A stretch of 64,000 bases of DNA from Bdellovibrionales bacterium CG10_big_fil_rev_8_21_14_0_10_45_34 (GTDB taxonomy: Bacteria; Bdellovibrionota; Bdellovibrionia; Bdellovibrionales; 1-14-0-10-45-34), in the NCBI GenBank assembly GCA_002778785.1, contig PEZS01000011.1:318995-382994 (forward strand), in the 5' to 3' direction. The notes under the pieces were generated by a model. The model was not told the DNA's origin. It searched no databases and worked only from the letters and a program-made list of their open reading frames with translations. Shown here piece by piece: positions 12,234 through 59,943 of this stretch. Both the position numbers and the translations under genes were made by a program. Position 1 is the first letter of the stretch. The number at the start of each line of letters is the position of its first letter.

Positions 12234-13257
12234 TTACGCGAGTAAACCTTCACTCGCAAGTGAACTAGTTACACACAATCCCAAAAAAATGTGCAACACG
12301 AAAAAAGGCGATCGATCGTGTAACCTGTTGAAATAAATGAAATTTTAATAAGTCACAAACAAACATCTCGGCAGCATCGCAGGTGAGTTTAAGATCCTTA
12401 AAGTTTGAATTTAAGTTTTCAAGCAGCCGCAAACATCAACAGCGCTGATGAGGTTTGTATATAAACCTCAGTATTCACTCTCTAATTGATGAACTCTCGA
12501 ATGTTTTTGTTTTGGCCAGCAGGACTTTAGGCCAGAGATGCTGTCATATTTTTGCTTAGATTTAAGTCTGAAATTTCACATTTAAGAATCTAAGAATACG
12601 GAGCAAAAAAAGTGATGGCTTAACGCGTAATCGGTTCCAAAATAGAACCGCAGAATCAAAAAGTTGGCTCAAGTCGAATAAAGGGCTGCTCCCAATTTGT
12701 CGAACGTAGCGAGCAAAAACAAAGATAGTGGTGTTAGGAGTAGGTAGTACCGATCGATGTGCCGACCAGGAGGCGCCGGGGACAGCGCGCTGAAAATAAA
12801 AAAAAGGTTTCCACAGAATTTTGTGGTGGCAGAAATCCAAAACCCGTTCTAGCTCTAGGTGGGTCGCCGTTATAACAACTTTAGGCTTCTCAGTCCAAAA
12901 ATGCTGAGCCTGCTCACCATCGTCAGGGACAGCCCCCGTACTTATGCTTGTAGGGTTTTAATTTACTGATTCCACAAACCTATAGAAACCCTTACTGATT
13001 ACTTTACCACGCAGAAAAGAATGCACAACGGGAAGCCATTACAGGCGATGTCTCATTTTGAAAAATCCCACCAAATCCGCAGATTTACAGGCGAATTTTT
13101 TTTGCCCATCCCAGCATAAAGCCCTGCGTCTCCAAAAGGTACCTGCTTCCCTTTGGTAGCGCTCCAGCGCTACCAAAGGGAAGCAGGTACCTTTGGAGAT
13201 CGATTTTCGTGTGTCTCATATAAAGATTCCCGGTCGTAATTCCGATAAACTGTTTAT
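12234..13257. other. Gene-free kilobase between divergent genes
   Basis: I see no convincing gene here. A 92-codon minus-strand frame at 12562-12840 has no ribosome site and an odd composition. Structured items are a perfect 8-bp inverted repeat (TGAGGTTT / AAACCTCA, 12449-12470), a small hairpin (CGGTTC / GAACCG, 12629-12647), and the long hairpin at 13129-13199. Promoters for the DksA-like gene (leftward) and the coiled-coil gene (rightward) must lie here. TATAAA at 13219-13224 is a possible -10 element for the latter, without a good -35. An uncharacterised small RNA in this stretch is possible but cannot be supported from sequence alone. Confidence 0.6.
13129..13199. repeat. Very long near-perfect hairpin
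   Basis: Two arms of 34 and 33 bases pair completely except for one bulged A, around a 4-nt TCCA loop (13163-13166). The arms begin TCTCCAAA and end GGTAGCGC. No T-run follows, so it is not an ordinary intrinsic terminator. It lies about 60 bases before the start of the coiled-coil gene, in or next to that gene's promoter or leader. Confidence 0.95.
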
Positions 13258-51628: not shown

Positions 51629-51980
51629 GGGGGTGCACTGGTTTCGACGTGGGTAAAGAAGCTTAGGGAGCAGGTAGAGGCGCATGAGGACCTCTCAAAA
51701 AACGTGCACTTGTAGTTGCAAACCAAAACTTTGCACTTGCTGCCTAATTTAGTGTAGCACGCTGATTCAAGAAATGGTGATGGTCTTGATGAGGTGTCAC
51801 TTTAGTCACCTCGGTCGAAAGTGGTTTTCTTCAGCGCTTTCAGCCTAAATTTTCTGAGGGAATATTTGTAAATGAGTTTGTTTGTGTACTTGCTTACAAA
51901 TCATTAAACGCAAACTAAACCTGTAGTGCCTTAACGTGGAAGACTTGCGGACGGGGGTTCGATTCCCCCCACCTCCACCA
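51629..51980 (+). ncRNA. ssrA: Transfer-messenger RNA
   Basis: About 352 nt. The 5' arm GGGGGTG (51629-51635) pairs with CACCTCC (51970-51976), with a G3-U70 wobble, the identity element for alanylation; ACCA ends at 51980. The T arm (GGGGG TTCGATT CCCCC) is at 51953-51969. The resume codon GCA at 51718-51720 begins the tag reading ANQNFALAA, ending in TAA at 51745-51747, an ordinary ssrA tag with the AA terminus read by ClpXP. It rescues stalled ribosomes together with SmpB. The gene is intact at the ICE junction. TATAGT at 51582-51587 may be its -10 element. Confidence 0.97.
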
Positions 51981-53719
51981 AATCTTACGCTGGACGAACC
52001 ATCGTCCATTAAAAAGCCGCCTAGATAGACACCTATCTCAGCGGCTTTTTTAATTTCTGCCATCTTTTCACCACATTCAGCTCCTCCGAACGAAGCCTCT
52101 AGTGGCCTACCAAGTTTACGAAAAGGGAGAACAACTCCTGATTGACCCTTATGGGCCTCTCTAACGGCCTCTGATTGGCGCTCTGTTCCCCAAAAATCTA
52201 CCATAATGACATTTTCGGGGTTCAAGTGAATGGTCTTAACAATATTCCTCAAAATCTCACGCTTTTTGGCCAAATTGGCCTTTCTAAAACGTTCGCTTCT
52301 GAGTAAATCAATTCCACCCAACAGATAATCTATGTCAATTTCTCTTTCGTGATCAGAATCTAGTTTTTGTTTTAGTGATTCAGTTTCTTCTTTCAAAAGA
52401 ACTAATTTTTTTTCAGATTCTTCCAGTTTGTTGATCAAACTGTTCAATCTAGCTGCATTTGAATTGGTGGCCATGATCGTAACGAGTTGGTCAATTTCAG
52501 CTTGAGTTTTTTCAAGCTCTTTTTCTTTCATTTTAACTAATGATTGATTCACCTTTGGCCGAGAATTATTCATGTCCTTTAAAATCTCAACAAAATGCTC
52601 TTTCATTGCCTGATTATTTAAAAACGAGAAAGCTTGTTTCTTAACAAGAGTTTCTAATTCAATCGCAGGGTATCTTTTAATACGACAAGAAGAAGCTCCC
52701 TTGTGACCATAGTAGAAATGTGTGCCATTTCTACCACTGCCTGATTGACCAAAGAGAGGAGAACCACACTCGTCACAAGTAAGAAGCCCAGAGAAAATAA
52801 AATCATGCTTTGGTGCAGATTTTACTTGTTTGTTCATATTCAATCTTTCTTGAACTTGATTGAATCGTGCTTCGTCAATGATGGCTTCCCAAGAAGCATC
52901 AACATATGAATATTGTTCTTCAAACTTTAAAAGCTCAGGAGCGACTTCTTTATTGCTTTTATTTATCTCTCTCTTTCCAATATAGGCAGGATTGGTCAGT
53001 GTTCTCCAAATATGATCATGATTGAATGGGTTTCCACCTTTAGCTTGACCATCTTTGCCGACCCACATTTTATTTACAAATCCACGCTTGTTTAACTCAT
53101 GAGCTACTGCTGAAATACTCCCAAGTTCAAAATAAAGATTGAATATTTCCTTAACAAGATTGGCTTCTTTTTTATTGAGAATTAAACGACCAGAGTTTTT
53201 AGTGTCTTTGTCATAACCTAGAAAAGGATGGCCACCGTTTAAAAGGCCTCGCAATGCACGAGAGTGAAAGTTATTTTTAATCCTTTCTGCTGTTAGCTCT
53301 CTTTCAAATTGGGCAAGTGCCATAATAATCGTCATGAAAACGCGGCCAGCAGGGCTTGTGGTATCAAAATCATATTGAAGACAAATGAAATCACAGCCAA
53401 GTTTTTCCATATCATTGATGAAATTTAAAAAGTCGGCGACGGAACGACTCAAACGAGATAACTCCGTAACCATTACAGTATCAATTCTTTTTTTCTTGAT
53501 ATCAGCGATGAGCCTTTGGAACTCAGGGCGATCAGTGTTTTTACCTGAGTAGGCCTCATCTTTATATAGATCAACGACTTTTCCCCATTTGCCATTTTCA
53601 TAGCGATTCTTCTCTTCAACTTTCATTCTTAATCGTTGAATTTGAGAGGTAATGGAACCCTCTTTGTTTTTTGCCTGCTCATCTGTCGATACACGACAAT
53701 AAATAGCAATCTTTCTCAT
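51845..53719 (-). CDS. Large serine recombinase (ICE integrase), reading frame runs into antisense tmRNA
   Basis: A 624-codon frame. The resolvase-type catalytic domain is residues 1-150, with nucleophile S11 in YCRVST and AQFERELTAERI. A recombinase domain (about 165-280) and a zinc ribbon (CDEC at about 309-312, then a later cysteine) follow, and a coiled coil lies at about 385-450. It would integrate and excise the element at the tmRNA gene. The last 45 residues (about 580-624) are antisense to tmRNA, and a bidirectional terminator interrupts the gene at about residues 556-570. A stop codon occurs only inside the tmRNA. The element-encoded part is therefore about 555-580 residues. AAGGA precedes the ATG, two bases after the XRE stop. 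Large serine recombinases rarely use tmRNA; tyrosine integrases are the usual ones there. Confidence 0.9.
   Translation of the reverse strand: MRKIAIYCRVSTDEQAKNKEGSITSQIQRLRMKVEEKNRYENGKWGKVVDLYKDEAYSGKNTDRPEFQRLIADIKKKRIDTVMVTELSRLSRSVADFLNFINDMEKLGCDFICLQYDFDTTSPAGRVFMTIIMALAQFERELTAERIKNNFHSRALRGLLNGGHPFLGYDKDTKNSGRLILNKKEANLVKEIFNLYFELGSISAVAHELNKRGFVNKMWVGKDGQAKGGNPFNHDHIWRTLTNPAYIGKREINKSNKEVAPELLKFEEQYSYVDASWEAIIDEARFNQVQERLNMNKQVKSAPKHDFIFSGLLTCDECGSPLFGQSGSGRNGTHFYYGHKGASSCRIKRYPAIELETLVKKQAFSFLNNQAMKEHFVEILKDMNNSRPKVNQSLVKMKEKELEKTQAEIDQLVTIMATNSNAARLNSLINKLEESEKKLVLLKEETESLKQKLDSDHEREIDIDYLLGGIDLLRSERFRKANLAKKREILRNIVKTIHLNPENVIMVDFWGTERQSEAVREAHKGQSGVVLPFRKLGRPLEASFGGAECGEKMAEIKKAAEIGVYLGGFLMDDGSSSVRFGGGGGNRTPVRKSSTLRHYRFSLRLMICKQVHKQTHLQIFPQKI
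51991..52008. other. Perfect inverted repeat next to tmRNA, candidate attachment-site arm
   Basis: TGGACGA-ACCA-TCGTCCA begins ten bases after the tmRNA CCA end. Large serine integrases bind imperfect palindromes around a central dinucleotide, so this site (or the adjoining T arm/acceptor of tmRNA) may be part of attL. The matching attR lies outside the window, so the crossover point cannot be fixed. Confidence 0.35.
52011..52051. terminator. Bidirectional intrinsic terminator between tmRNA and recombinase
   Basis: Stem GCCGC..AGATAG, loop ACAC, then CTATCT..GCGGC, flanked by five A on the left and six T on the right. On the plus strand it ends tmRNA transcription 31 bases past the CCA. On the minus strand it has the same shape with five T, and lies inside the recombinase frame, before any stop codon. 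Confidence 0.9.
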
Positions 53720-53721
53720 AA

Positions 53722-53967
53722 CTAATCCTTACTACGCTTGATAATGACATCAACATCTAAACCAATACCGTTAGCAATTCTTACTAACTGGTCAATGCTG
53801 ACTCCTCTTTCTGTTCCTCGAAGAATTTTATTAACATTTCTTCGATCAAGCCCAATCATTCGAGCAACTTCACCTTGCGATAAATTCTTGCGTTCCATTT
53901 CTTTTTCAATTGATGCAAGTAACTTTATTTTTATCTCACCACTTTTGTTTTCAATCAAAATAGTCAT
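53722..53967 (-). CDS. XRE-family helix-turn-helix repressor
   Basis: An 81-residue DNA-binding protein. The HTH (about residues 30-70) reads LSQGEVARMIGLDRRNVNKI, then RGVSIDQLVRIANGIGLDVD, as in small autoregulators and antitoxins (HigA-like and phage-repressor-like XRE). It starts one base after the TIR gene stop and ends two bases before the recombinase start. The 26-bp palindrome upstream of the operon is its natural target, making it a repressor of TIR, itself and the recombinase. The extra N-terminal stretch (residues 1-25) is not typical. Confidence 0.85.
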   Translation of the reverse strand: MTILIENKSGEIKIKLLASIEKEMERKNLSQGEVARMIGLDRRNVNKILRGTERGVSIDQLVRIANGIGLDVDVIIKRSKD

Positions 53968-53968
53968 T

Positions 53969-54910
53969 TTACAAACCTTGTATCTGTTGAATTGTAATTC
54001 CAGCAGCCAATATTTCTCTCTTTAAATCATTTTTCCAATAGCCGTATTGATCAAAACCAACGTACACAACGCCACTAATATCATTAGGAGTTTCAATGTC
54101 TCCTTTAACTAAAGCAGTAACTCTTTGTCGTCCTAACTTTGCCATTAGATAACCATGTTCAAGAACGACATTTTGCCTAGCTCTGTACCTATAACTCATT
54201 TTAGATTGATCATAATTATATATTGAGCCAACGTCACAAGGAGTGTATAGAACTACTGCAAATCCAACATTTGTGTAAGTTTCAATTTTTTCAATAATTG
54301 TTTTTCCTAAATTTGCCTGTTCATGAAGAATAATTGGAATAAGGCCTAGTTCAGTAATGTATGAAGCAACTTGGTATTTTGTATCATCATCTCTCCCATG
54401 AACAATAAAAACATGATTGTTATTAAGGGAGTCAATGATATTTGCTGGTAGATTACTTCTACCAGTTTCACGCTCCCTTATTGTCTTAGCTGCTTCAACT
54501 TGATCTTTTGAATAAAATCCTTTTTCGGATAGAGTCTTGAGTAGGTTATCATCTTTGATTGACCAATGAGTTCTGTTTCTTTCAAATAGTGGTATATCAA
54601 AAACTTTCTCTAGTTTTTCAAGTGATCCAGCAGGAAGCGGAGGTAAGATGGTATCAAACTTATATTCAATAAGAATATGATCACTCCTAACTTTTAAATT
54701 AGTGATGTATCCAACTCTCGAATCATGTTTGTCACCTTCAATTGCAAACAAAGTCGGGAAAGATTTTAGTTTATTCAAGGTTTCAATATTTAATTCAGCA
54801 AACTGATCTCTTATATAACTCTCAGTGTGTTCTAAATATCTTTTCTTATCGCATTGGTAAGGATCAAGATTCCATGAATCAGGGTTATAGCTAATCATTA
54901 AGTTGAACAT
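53969..54910 (-). CDS. TIR-like (CAP12/Pycsar-type, PF10137) nucleotide-binding protein
   Basis: A 313-residue protein. The C-terminal domain (about 166-305) starts HVFIVHGRDDD and continues GLIPIILHEQANLGKTIIEKIE and ARQNVVLEHGYLMAKLGR, whose E251 matches the conserved glutamate of this TIR-like family. Several members degrade NAD+ when activated in anti-phage systems; this one might too (inference). The N-terminal 150 residues form a beta-rich domain often paired with it (FAIEGDKHDSRVGY, PPLPAGSLEKLEKVF). No nucleotide cyclase is adjacent. AAGGA lies six bases before ATG 54910. It is the first gene of the three-gene operon with the repressor and recombinase. Confidence 0.8.
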   Translation of the reverse strand: MFNLMISYNPDSWNLDPYQCDKKRYLEHTESYIRDQFAELNIETLNKLKSFPTLFAIEGDKHDSRVGYITNLKVRSDHILIEYKFDTILPPLPAGSLEKLEKVFDIPLFERNRTHWSIKDDNLLKTLSEKGFYSKDQVEAAKTIRERETGRSNLPANIIDSLNNNHVFIVHGRDDDTKYQVASYITELGLIPIILHEQANLGKTIIEKIETYTNVGFAVVLYTPCDVGSIYNYDQSKMSYRYRARQNVVLEHGYLMAKLGRQRVTALVKGDIETPNDISGVVYVGFDQYGYWKNDLKREILAAGITIQQIQGL

Positions 54911-57560: not shown

Positions 57561-59015
57561 TTAATTCCCGTCAGGGATTTGTGTTTTCTTTCCTAGGACT
57601 TCGCCCTCAGAAATATCCATCATTGGTCGAAAGCAGGGATAATTTGAACTGAACTTTTCTTGTAAGATTTCAATTTCACTTTTGAGTTCTTCATCTTCAA
57701 GGAATGGAGCTTGTATTTCTAAAAACTCATTTCCTGAAGCCCATACTGCGCGGCCCTTAATATCTGGCAACTCAAATGCTCTTTTGTTGCCTAGAACTGT
57801 CACAGAGTTAGTCATCGTGTTCATTCTGAAACAAACTCGTCCACCGATATTTTCTTGAACTTTAGTGTCAATTGTTTCTTTTGATACCTTTTGAGTAGCA
57901 AAAATAAGATGAATTCCTGCGGCCCGTGCCAGTTTGGCCAGCTCATCTGTATATTCCCTTGCGGTATTAATCAGATGGGCCTTAGTCGCATTGGCCTTTA
58001 CTTTTGAATAGAGAACAGAAGCCTCATCAATTCCAACAACAATTTTGTCCATTTTGTCCCTTGCTGGAATAATTTCTTTATTTCCTGTCTTTTCCAAATA
58101 CTCAAAACGTCGATCCATTTCATCTTTTACTTTCTTTAGCATTTGACAGGCCTCGGCTTCCGTCTTGGCGATTCTCACATTTGGCAATTCTCCAAACTCT
58201 TTCATCTCAACACCTCGCTTTAAATCTAAGAGATAAAGCTGTAGCCTTGGCGTAGATTTTAAAAGACTCACAAGTGTTTGCTTAAAAAAGACACTCTTTC
58301 CACCGCCAGTGGTTCCAGCTATAAGCAGATGTGGAAGTGATTCAAGAGTCCTCGTGACAACTCCTTTCATTGATTCACCAATAATAAAAGAATGAGGCTT
58401 CACTAGTTGTGCTTCTACATCATGGTACTTAACAAGCTTTGGAAGTTTTCTCTTTGTTAGGTACAAAATGATAATTTGCGGATTACTGCCGTTAGCTATT
58501 GAATCAATCTCTTCAGCAAATGAAGCCTCAATATCACTTTTTCTCTGCTGGTATTTATCAATCCCAATTCCAACCGATTTTATAACTAACGTAGTCTTAA
58601 ACTCATCGACATTGTTGACTGATACGACTCTAAAAAAAGCGCCTTCTGCACCATTTAATCCAATTCTGTTCAATTTTTTCTGAAACTCTTGCATCAGCTT
58701 AAATTCACGCAGGCCAACCAAAATGGAGGTGAACAACAAAATCGCGAATAGAAAAGCAAAGAAGAAAACCTCCCACGGAATTTTGTAAAGGACATTTACT
58801 AGAAATTTAGGAAGCTCATTCTGTATTCCTAAATGTGTCGCCCATAAAAATCTGTGGTTAAAAGTTGTTGCGCCAATTATCAGAGTTGTAGAGAGCATTA
58901 AAAGATAATATTCCTTCTTGTTCCTCCACATTTTTTTTAGTCCAAGCCAAACGCATTGAGATAAAGATTCAATAATTTTAAGAAACTTATTCTCCTCTGT
59001 TTTTGATTTACTCAT
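57561..59015 (-). CDS. FtsK/SpoIIIE-like conjugative coupling ATPase
   Basis: About 484 residues. Two N-terminal membrane helices (about 35-55 and 85-110) are followed by a RecA-type ATPase with Walker A AGTTGGGKSVFFK, Walker B IVVGIDEAS, and the FtsK-type ATQKVSKETID motif. It hydrolyses ATP to pump DNA and acts as the coupling protein (TcpA/VirD4 role). FtsK-type coupling proteins are best known from Gram-positive ICEs; a diderm T4SS usually has a VirD4/TraD family protein instead. The ATG at 59015 overlaps the virB10 stop. Confidence 0.88.
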   Translation of the reverse strand: MSKSKTEENKFLKIIESLSQCVWLGLKKMWRNKKEYYLLMLSTTLIIGATTFNHRFLWATHLGIQNELPKFLVNVLYKIPWEVFFFAFLFAILLFTSILVGLREFKLMQEFQKKLNRIGLNGAEGAFFRVVSVNNVDEFKTTLVIKSVGIGIDKYQQRKSDIEASFAEEIDSIANGSNPQIIILYLTKRKLPKLVKYHDVEAQLVKPHSFIIGESMKGVVTRTLESLPHLLIAGTTGGGKSVFFKQTLVSLLKSTPRLQLYLLDLKRGVEMKEFGELPNVRIAKTEAEACQMLKKVKDEMDRRFEYLEKTGNKEIIPARDKMDKIVVGIDEASVLYSKVKANATKAHLINTAREYTDELAKLARAAGIHLIFATQKVSKETIDTKVQENIGGRVCFRMNTMTNSVTVLGNKRAFELPDIKGRAVWASGNEFLEIQAPFLEDEELKSEIEILQEKFSSNYPCFRPMMDISEGEVLGKKTQIPDGN

Positions 59016-59943
59016 TTTCACCGCCAAATGCCGAAGTTAAACTGATAATAATGTCAGTACCAGCTTCAAGCGTAATGTAAGGAGGAGTCTGGGCCATGGC
59101 CTCTGCGTGTCTGGCGGCTTCCATCTCTGAAACTTTAGATACACCCTGAAATACAGCATTTTTCATTGTTGGCTTGGGGGTTGTTGCACCGAAATCGCCA
59201 TGGGCCGTCTTATCTGTTAAAACATCTGTCATACTAGATACCATTGTTAGTCCTAATGTTCCGGCAATTCTAATCCCAGTTTCCGAGTGAACATCTCCAA
59301 TAATGCCATTTGAATAGTCAGAACTATCTAGCGCCATGGCCATTATTTGTTTTTCTTCACCCGTTGGGCTAATTGCTTTATCAAAACTCAGATAAATCCT
59401 TTCGCCTTTACCTGAAAAATGGGCTTTTCCAATAAGCATGGAATTCTTTTCAATAAATTGTTCTCCTTTAAAGTTTGCACCATAAGGCAAAAGAACTTTA
59501 ACTTGCGAGGTTAAATCTCGTGAGTCGATTGCGGACAAGAGCTTGCCAATGATATTTGATCCATTGGGAAGTGCTTTTTTCAATGACTTATCATCACTTC
59601 TAACAAGAACTTGTTTTGCTCTGTATTCCAGCTTCTTTTGCTGAAATTCACCCGACATATTATTAGATTTTTTTGTGTCAGGTGGTACTTCATTTTGAAT
59701 TGGAATCATTTCAATTTCAGTGCTGGTCAATTGAGGCTGTTGTTCATCGCCGTCAATTAGACTCTTATCTGTCTTTTGTGATGTACCTGCTGGTGGTGAA
59801 TCAAAGACAATGGCAAAAATTGTATAGGTTAGCCCCAGAATGAAGGCTAAAATACTTCCAATTTTTTTTATATTAAATCTTCTTTTCCCACCATCTAGAG
59901 TAAAAGCGAACCTCTCAAACCATCCAGATTTTTCATTGGCTAT
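59008..59943 (-). CDS. virB10: VirB10/TrbI-like T4SS scaffold, apparently starting at an AUA codon
   Basis: About 311 residues linking inner and outer membranes. From an in-frame ATA at 59943 the N-terminus is ANEKSGWFERF, then basic KRRFNIKK and a membrane helix (IGSILAFILGLTYTIFAIV), a proline-rich linker and the C-terminal beta-barrel domain of the VirB10 family (VKVLLPYGANFKGEQF, GKAHFSGKGERIYLSF). There is no ATG, GTG or TTG in frame before the helix; the first TTG (59730) would delete the cytoplasmic tail and helix. GAGGAG lies 8 bases upstream of ATA, which overlaps the virB9 stop as ATAG. Alternatives are an ATT start, a -1 frameshift from ATG 59936 on a run of five A, or a sequencing error. 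Confidence 0.8.
   Translation of the reverse strand: MANEKSGWFERFAFTLDGGKRRFNIKKIGSILAFILGLTYTIFAIVFDSPPAGTSQKTDKSLIDGDEQQPQLTSTEIEMIPIQNEVPPDTKKSNNMSGEFQQKKLEYRAKQVLVRSDDKSLKKALPNGSNIIGKLLSAIDSRDLTSQVKVLLPYGANFKGEQFIEKNSMLIGKAHFSGKGERIYLSFDKAISPTGEEKQIMAMALDSSDYSNGIIGDVHSETGIRIAGTLGLTMVSSMTDVLTDKTAHGDFGATTPKPTMKNAVFQGVSKVSEMEAARHAEAMAQTPPYITLEAGTDIIISLTSAFGGENE

Follow-up and report, generated by a model that had tools for sequence, protein, structure and literature searches.

The recombinase gene and its surroundings

We analysed a 64-kb window (G000:C11:318995-382994) in which a complete tmRNA gene and a large serine recombinase gene lie on opposite strands, the reading frame of the recombinase running into the antisense strand of the tmRNA (Table 1). 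The tmRNA encodes the tag peptide ANQNFALAA, in agreement with a previous reading of the DNA made from the sequence alone (the sequence-only reading). The recombinase contains the Resolvase (PF00239, residues 4-158), Recombinase (PF07508, 184-294) and Zn_ribbon_recom (PF13408, 308-362) domains of Pfam, in the order expected for large serine recombinases and all above cut-off. The best NCBIfam relatives of this body are the SCCmec CcrB-like (168 bits) and XisF-like (148 bits) recombinases, both matches being far under the curated cut-offs (900 and 375) and covering the body only, with the linker and tail outside. Similarity to distant recombinases stops near residue 504, and the stretch from there up to attP is variable. 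There are no in-frame stops between a terminator-like hairpin within the frame and the tmRNA, and the first in-frame stop of the recombinase lies in antisense tmRNA.

Directly upstream of the recombinase is a small HTH protein, likely a regulator, and near both is a candidate defence gene encoding a TIR-domain protein. Elsewhere in the window there are conjugation genes for an FtsK/HerA-like ATPase and a TrbI-like protein, as would suit an integrative conjugative element, and a 6S RNA gene. Additional element cargo comprises PglZ and BrxL (BREX) together with a SIR2-HerA pair, in which HerA may be broken, as it is split into two frames of 185 and 365 aa.

Table 1. Features of the recombinase locus, the element and its surroundings (window numbering unless a contig is given).
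Feature	Position	Strand	Basis and remarks
tmRNA (ssrA), complete; CCA end is the integration target	51629..51980	+	ARAGORN; Rfam RF00023, 154.9 bits
attL identity block CCACCAAATCTTACG	51975..51989	.	Single repeat at attR, C11:409703-409717 (~90709-90723 if the window numbering is continued past its end)
Element-side attP arm GCTGGACGAACC	51989..52000	.	Reverse complement GGTTCGTCCAGC at the opposite element end, just before attR
Terminator-like hairpin inside the recombinase frame, U-runs on both strands	52011..52051	.	Folding, shuffles, comparison with relatives
Body of large serine recombinase	51845..53719	-	624-aa ORF; own codons 1 to ~580, then antisense tmRNA to an accidental stop at 51845
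Small HTH (XRE-like) protein	53722..53967	-	Pfam HTH_37, HTH_3
TIR-domain protein	53969-54910	-	CAP12/Pycsar TIR, PADLOC PDC-S35
FtsK/HerA-like ATPase and TrbI-like protein	57561-59730	-	
6S RNA gene	12804-12991	-	Rfam RF00013, 70 bits
PglZ, BrxL and SIR2-HerA cargo	L108:11553-19026 (C11:401552-409025)		
IS481-like insertion sequence (L113, L109)	C11:409718-411010		Directly beyond attR, outside the window

Attachment sites and the fused frame

The attR site was located by scanning C11 for the half-site GGTTCG. It has the sequence GGTTCGTCCAGCCTCAGGCTCCGACCACCAAATCTTACG, lies 38.7 kb to the right of attL and has 15 bp in common with it. Joining the two ends of the element rebuilds attP, which reads GGTTCGTCCAGCGTAAGATTTGGTGGTCGGAGCCTGAGGCTGGACGAACC on the recombinase strand and has inverted arms that are perfect over 12 bp. 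The identity of the 15-bp block extends partly outside the expected crossover, and this counts against the interpretation as a split gene given below. A 30-bp match at G000:C6 was also considered as attR and rejected, since it is merely the 3' end of a tRNA-Ser. The insertion sequence that directly follows attR probably removes part of its host-side arm, and because it interrupts attR this close beyond the core, the element of the window may not excise and may be locked in place.

In the circle assembled in silico, the recombinase frame crosses attP and continues into an HTH tail of 148-150 codons with a stop of its own, giving a protein of 730 aa. The site attP thus lies within the coding sequence of the recombinase, and the gene is split between attL and attR. 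The sequence-only reading took 51845 as the in-frame stop of the recombinase; it is indeed the first one, but it is host sequence, and the gene's own stop lies at the attR end of the element. Unsplit frames also occur naturally, with lengths of 767, 784 and 793 aa (L143-L145). The left arm of L145 goes with the recombinase of that frame, while its right side does not match this recombinase, which fits a tandem junction; this frame is probably one element's recombinase reading into the tail of its neighbour.

Within the tail are an HTH region and another HTH, which resembles that of the Recombinase domain, and comparison with the PDB returned a weak similarity to the YokA/SPbeta recombinase. 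The tails are under purifying selection: among five close ones dN/dS is 0.07-0.17, and over codons 9-31 their ten pairs display 6-7.7 synonymous against 0-5.3 nonsynonymous changes, one of these pairs, L115/L117, being identical over this stretch. No start codon is shared across the tails: in several the sole possible start is a TTG at codon 32, and L114 has none before codon 75. In many attR copies, moreover, the core is preceded by stops at a distance of 2-7 codons. The lack of a shared start, the upstream stops and the selection on the early codons fit the C-terminal part of a fused protein and not a separate gene.

Recombinases and tails across Bdellovibrionota

Related recombinases were found in 141 of the 369 genomes of the phylum, and 49 recombinase loci (47 distinct) adjoin a tRNA or tmRNA gene, most relatives having a tRNA gene as target and not tmRNA. 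At these 49 loci the recombinase frame enters the antisense strand of the RNA gene, with phase 2 at the CCA end in 40. In 14 relatives (L018, L023, L032, L067, L070, L074, L078, L084, L089, L097-L100 and L104) the recombinase is ended 21 nt in by a TGA that the target supplies from the antisense T-loop of the tRNA or tmRNA. As the target tRNA gives a stop within the first codons in many relatives, the reach of the frame is an accident of the target.

Homologues of the tail are present in 76/369 genomes; compared with each other, they are divergent or unrelated upstream of a TGGTGG core and alike downstream of it. A search of 46 recombinase-bearing genomes with the tail profile (A1) recovered tails in 38 and found none in the other 8, owing either to its sensitivity or to real absence. 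The tail is on the same strand as the recombinase, 5' of it and typically 24-43 kb away. All same-contig pairs within ~100 kb that could be listed by comparing coordinates by hand share a strand. The tail is 5' of the recombinase in 23 contigs and 3' of it in three (G190:C73, G317:C12 and G005:C10), exceptions that count against a split gene.

For 19 recombinase-tail pairs the core was chosen only by arm complementarity, with the spacing fixed from the attP of the window. The phase at attL equals the phase at attR in every one of the 19, including one phase-0 and two phase-1 pairs, and the frame is open from core to tail in 18. The arms match at a median of 11 of 13 bases, compared with a mean of 6.2 in 323 mismatched pairs. 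In the exceptional pair, L101/L175, the arms match weakly (6/13) and the frame is not open at the chosen core, which speaks against a split gene.

A search of viral contigs with P0001 gave no match, the tail profile containing no stretch of sufficient conservation for such a scan, and searches of plasmids and phages gave weak matches alone, mostly over the HTH shared with the recombinase. We also observed many orphan tails that have no recombinase nearby, some of them in tandem a few kb apart, as in G108:C1 (L153), G047:C14 (L148, L149) and several G128 contigs, those of G108 and G047 being on one strand. Their arrangement looks as though many small islands lacking a recombinase had accumulated at a single site, each with a tail marking its attR.

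The hairpin within the recombinase frame

The hairpin corresponds to recombinase codons 557-570 (KKAAEIGVYLGGFL); the U-run after it is UUUUU in the recombinase direction and UUUUUU in the tmRNA direction. A 76-nt stretch that contains it and a second small hairpin folds with -34.5 kcal/mol (z -7.2) on the recombinase strand and -31.3 kcal/mol (z -7.6) on the tmRNA strand, and none of the shuffled sequences was as stable on either strand. The hairpin that the sequence-only reading described inside the frame is therefore real: it is strong and has a U-run on either strand. As a matter of sequence logic, an mRNA ending there has no stop codon. In L004, a 91% relative that is also inserted in tmRNA, the stems, U-runs and frame are unchanged and the loop has two differences. 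Between these two recombinases dS is 0.19 over the last 60 codons versus 0.96 in the body, synonymous sites elsewhere being near saturation, and the DNA at this end is therefore constrained beyond its protein.

We scanned the last 200 nt of 47 elements, and 233 control segments, with strict terminator thresholds (dG <= -14, U score >= 3.5), adopted since a looser scan gave many control matches. Under these thresholds, terminators leading out of the tRNA or tmRNA are found in 13 of the 47 elements and terminators in the direction of the recombinase in three, namely the hairpin of the window twice and L093, whereas no control segment has one in either direction. The relatives L003 and L015 lack a recombinase-direction terminator, and the expectation that related elements would keep the hairpin in frame without a stop fails. 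The terminators in the tRNA/tmRNA direction recur as hairpins whose sequences differ between lineages, which suggests the repeated gain of one function. We tried the idea that the hairpin substitutes for a displaced terminator of the tmRNA and rejected it, as just 3 of 28 tmRNAs, one of the three being that of the window, have a terminator within 120 nt. Because a close terminator is so rare at these tmRNAs, the hairpin is probably an insulator carried by the element itself against antisense transcription. Terminator activity in the recombinase direction would be a property of the window's lineage, and with translation following close behind the polymerase it may not act.

Discussion

Taken together, these data make it very probable that the attP of the element lies within the sequence that codes for the element's own large serine recombinase, so that integration splits the gene, the full form comes from the circle and the hairpin is a terminator borne by the element. 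At the level of sequence, the gene is split, its junction is in frame, its tail is under selection and its target is the CCA end. In the integrated state about 580 codons, comprising the catalytic, recombinase and zinc-ribbon parts and the variable linker, stay at attL and read into antisense tmRNA, while the last 148 codons, the HTH tail, lie at attR, 38.7 kb away. The circle would make the full-length recombinase, and probably only the circle would express it; integration would swap the tail for meaningless residues coded by the host, and with the loss of the tail the activity or direction of the enzyme may change. The recombinase targets the CCA end of tRNA and tmRNA genes, with the crossover predicted near the TGG of that end. 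The hairpin lies at the edge of the element, which is coding on one strand and on the other faces the tRNA or tmRNA. Its conserved job would be to stop readthrough from the tRNA or tmRNA antisense into the recombinase, and the symmetric form in the window's lineage may also act in the direction of the recombinase.

The sequence-only reading proposed instead that the mRNA of the recombinase finishes at the hairpin, short of any stop codon, that the stalled ribosomes lead to tagging with ANQNFALAA and degradation, and that the tmRNA thereby controls its resident element. The hairpin, U-run and open frame on which this depends are retained in L004, and the logic has precedents in ArfA and BrfA, where non-stop mRNA arises from a hairpin or terminator that precedes the stop within the frame (PMC8012679). 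There, non-stop control was tested (PMC8012679), whereas here a recombinase-direction terminator is a prediction specific to one lineage, present in the window and L004 and absent in most relatives, the majority of which are moreover in tRNA genes. The stop codon is missing because integration splits the gene, and since the hairpin precedes attP, a working terminator in this direction would, in the circle, cut off the conserved tail as well. We therefore regard such regulation as unlikely; it is not a conserved device, while non-stop decay or tmRNA tagging of the short recombinase may occur in the window's lineage.

Convergent genes often have a bidirectional terminator between them, and the hairpin could be one that serves tmRNA and recombinase alike, with the genuine recombinase stopping at about residue 505 and a meaningless frame beyond it. 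The end of similarity near residue 504 and the variable stretch that follows would agree with this. A meaningless frame does not, however, account for a phase at attL that is nearly fixed and equal to that of the distal tail in all 19 pairs, for strong protein-level selection from the first codons of the tails, or for the existence of unsplit fusions; its terminator part may be right, its view of the frame is not, and as a whole we regard it as improbable. Least credible is the view of the tail as a small DNA-binding gene in its own right, a regulator or directionality factor, placed by chance at the right end. Its HTH content and the orphan tails would suit such a gene, but the absence of a conserved start codon, the stops just upstream of the core, the selection on codons that precede the first possible start and the strict frame match to attL all argue for a fused protein.

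If the gene is split as we propose, a built-in switch can be envisaged, in which the tailed form, produced from the circle alone, integrates attP x attB and integration in turn severs the tail. The short form that is left, catalytically complete, would have an altered direction or activity, and the element would need no separate directionality factor; in the tmRNA-targeting lineage of the window, the symmetric hairpin may add tmRNA-dependent decay of the short form. We put this forward tentatively, as a scheme that may well prove wrong.

The logic of an attP in the own gene is that of the archaeal suicidal integrases (SSV-type, pTN3, pT26-2), which are partitioned by integration and restored in the circle, and which may form chimeric genes between elements (PMC8371274). 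Those enzymes are tyrosine recombinases, called exclusively archaeal in a 2021 review (PMC8371274), with the catalytic residues in the separated Int(C), whereas the present enzyme is a bacterial serine recombinase whose catalytic domain is N-terminal and stays whole, the HTH tail being lost. Alignment of the body covers almost the whole of XisF and a large part of CcrB; the short form may therefore stay active, unlike the archaeal case.

A further close description is that of DsiB, from ssrA islands of Dehalococcoides, a Ccr-like serine recombinase whose 3' end overlaps attL and finds its stop in host DNA only; its authors suggested that full function may require the circle or a neighbouring 3' gene fragment (PMC3146451). 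By description our recombinase is alike, being Ccr-like, overlapping attL at ssrA and stopping in host DNA. In the accessible part of the same paper the 3' fragment is not identified and the insertion site is the T-loop (PMC3146451), whereas here the missing fragment was found and tested across many elements, and insertion is near the CCA end. In mycobacteriophage BPs, attP is inside the repressor gene, so that the protein becomes shorter and behaves differently after integration, the 33 residues lost carrying an ssrA-like degradation tag (PMC4557955); in our case it is the recombinase itself that is split. Our search of the open-licence literature returned no description of a serine integrase gene that contains attP, so that priority is unproven.

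Self-splitting integrases have so far been described as a peculiarity of archaeal tyrosine enzymes, and a widespread bacterial serine version would mean that self-splitting originated independently in an unrelated enzyme class. As the catalytic part is kept whole, it can be asked directly whether the removable tail sets the direction of integration. The tail is the kind of 3' fragment that was proposed in 2011 for the Dehalococcoides islands. The split gene would explain why recombinases appear to end inside tRNA and tmRNA genes, the recognisable tail would mark the attR of many islands, and serine integrases reading the CCA ends of many tRNAs are also of practical interest as tools for genome insertion.
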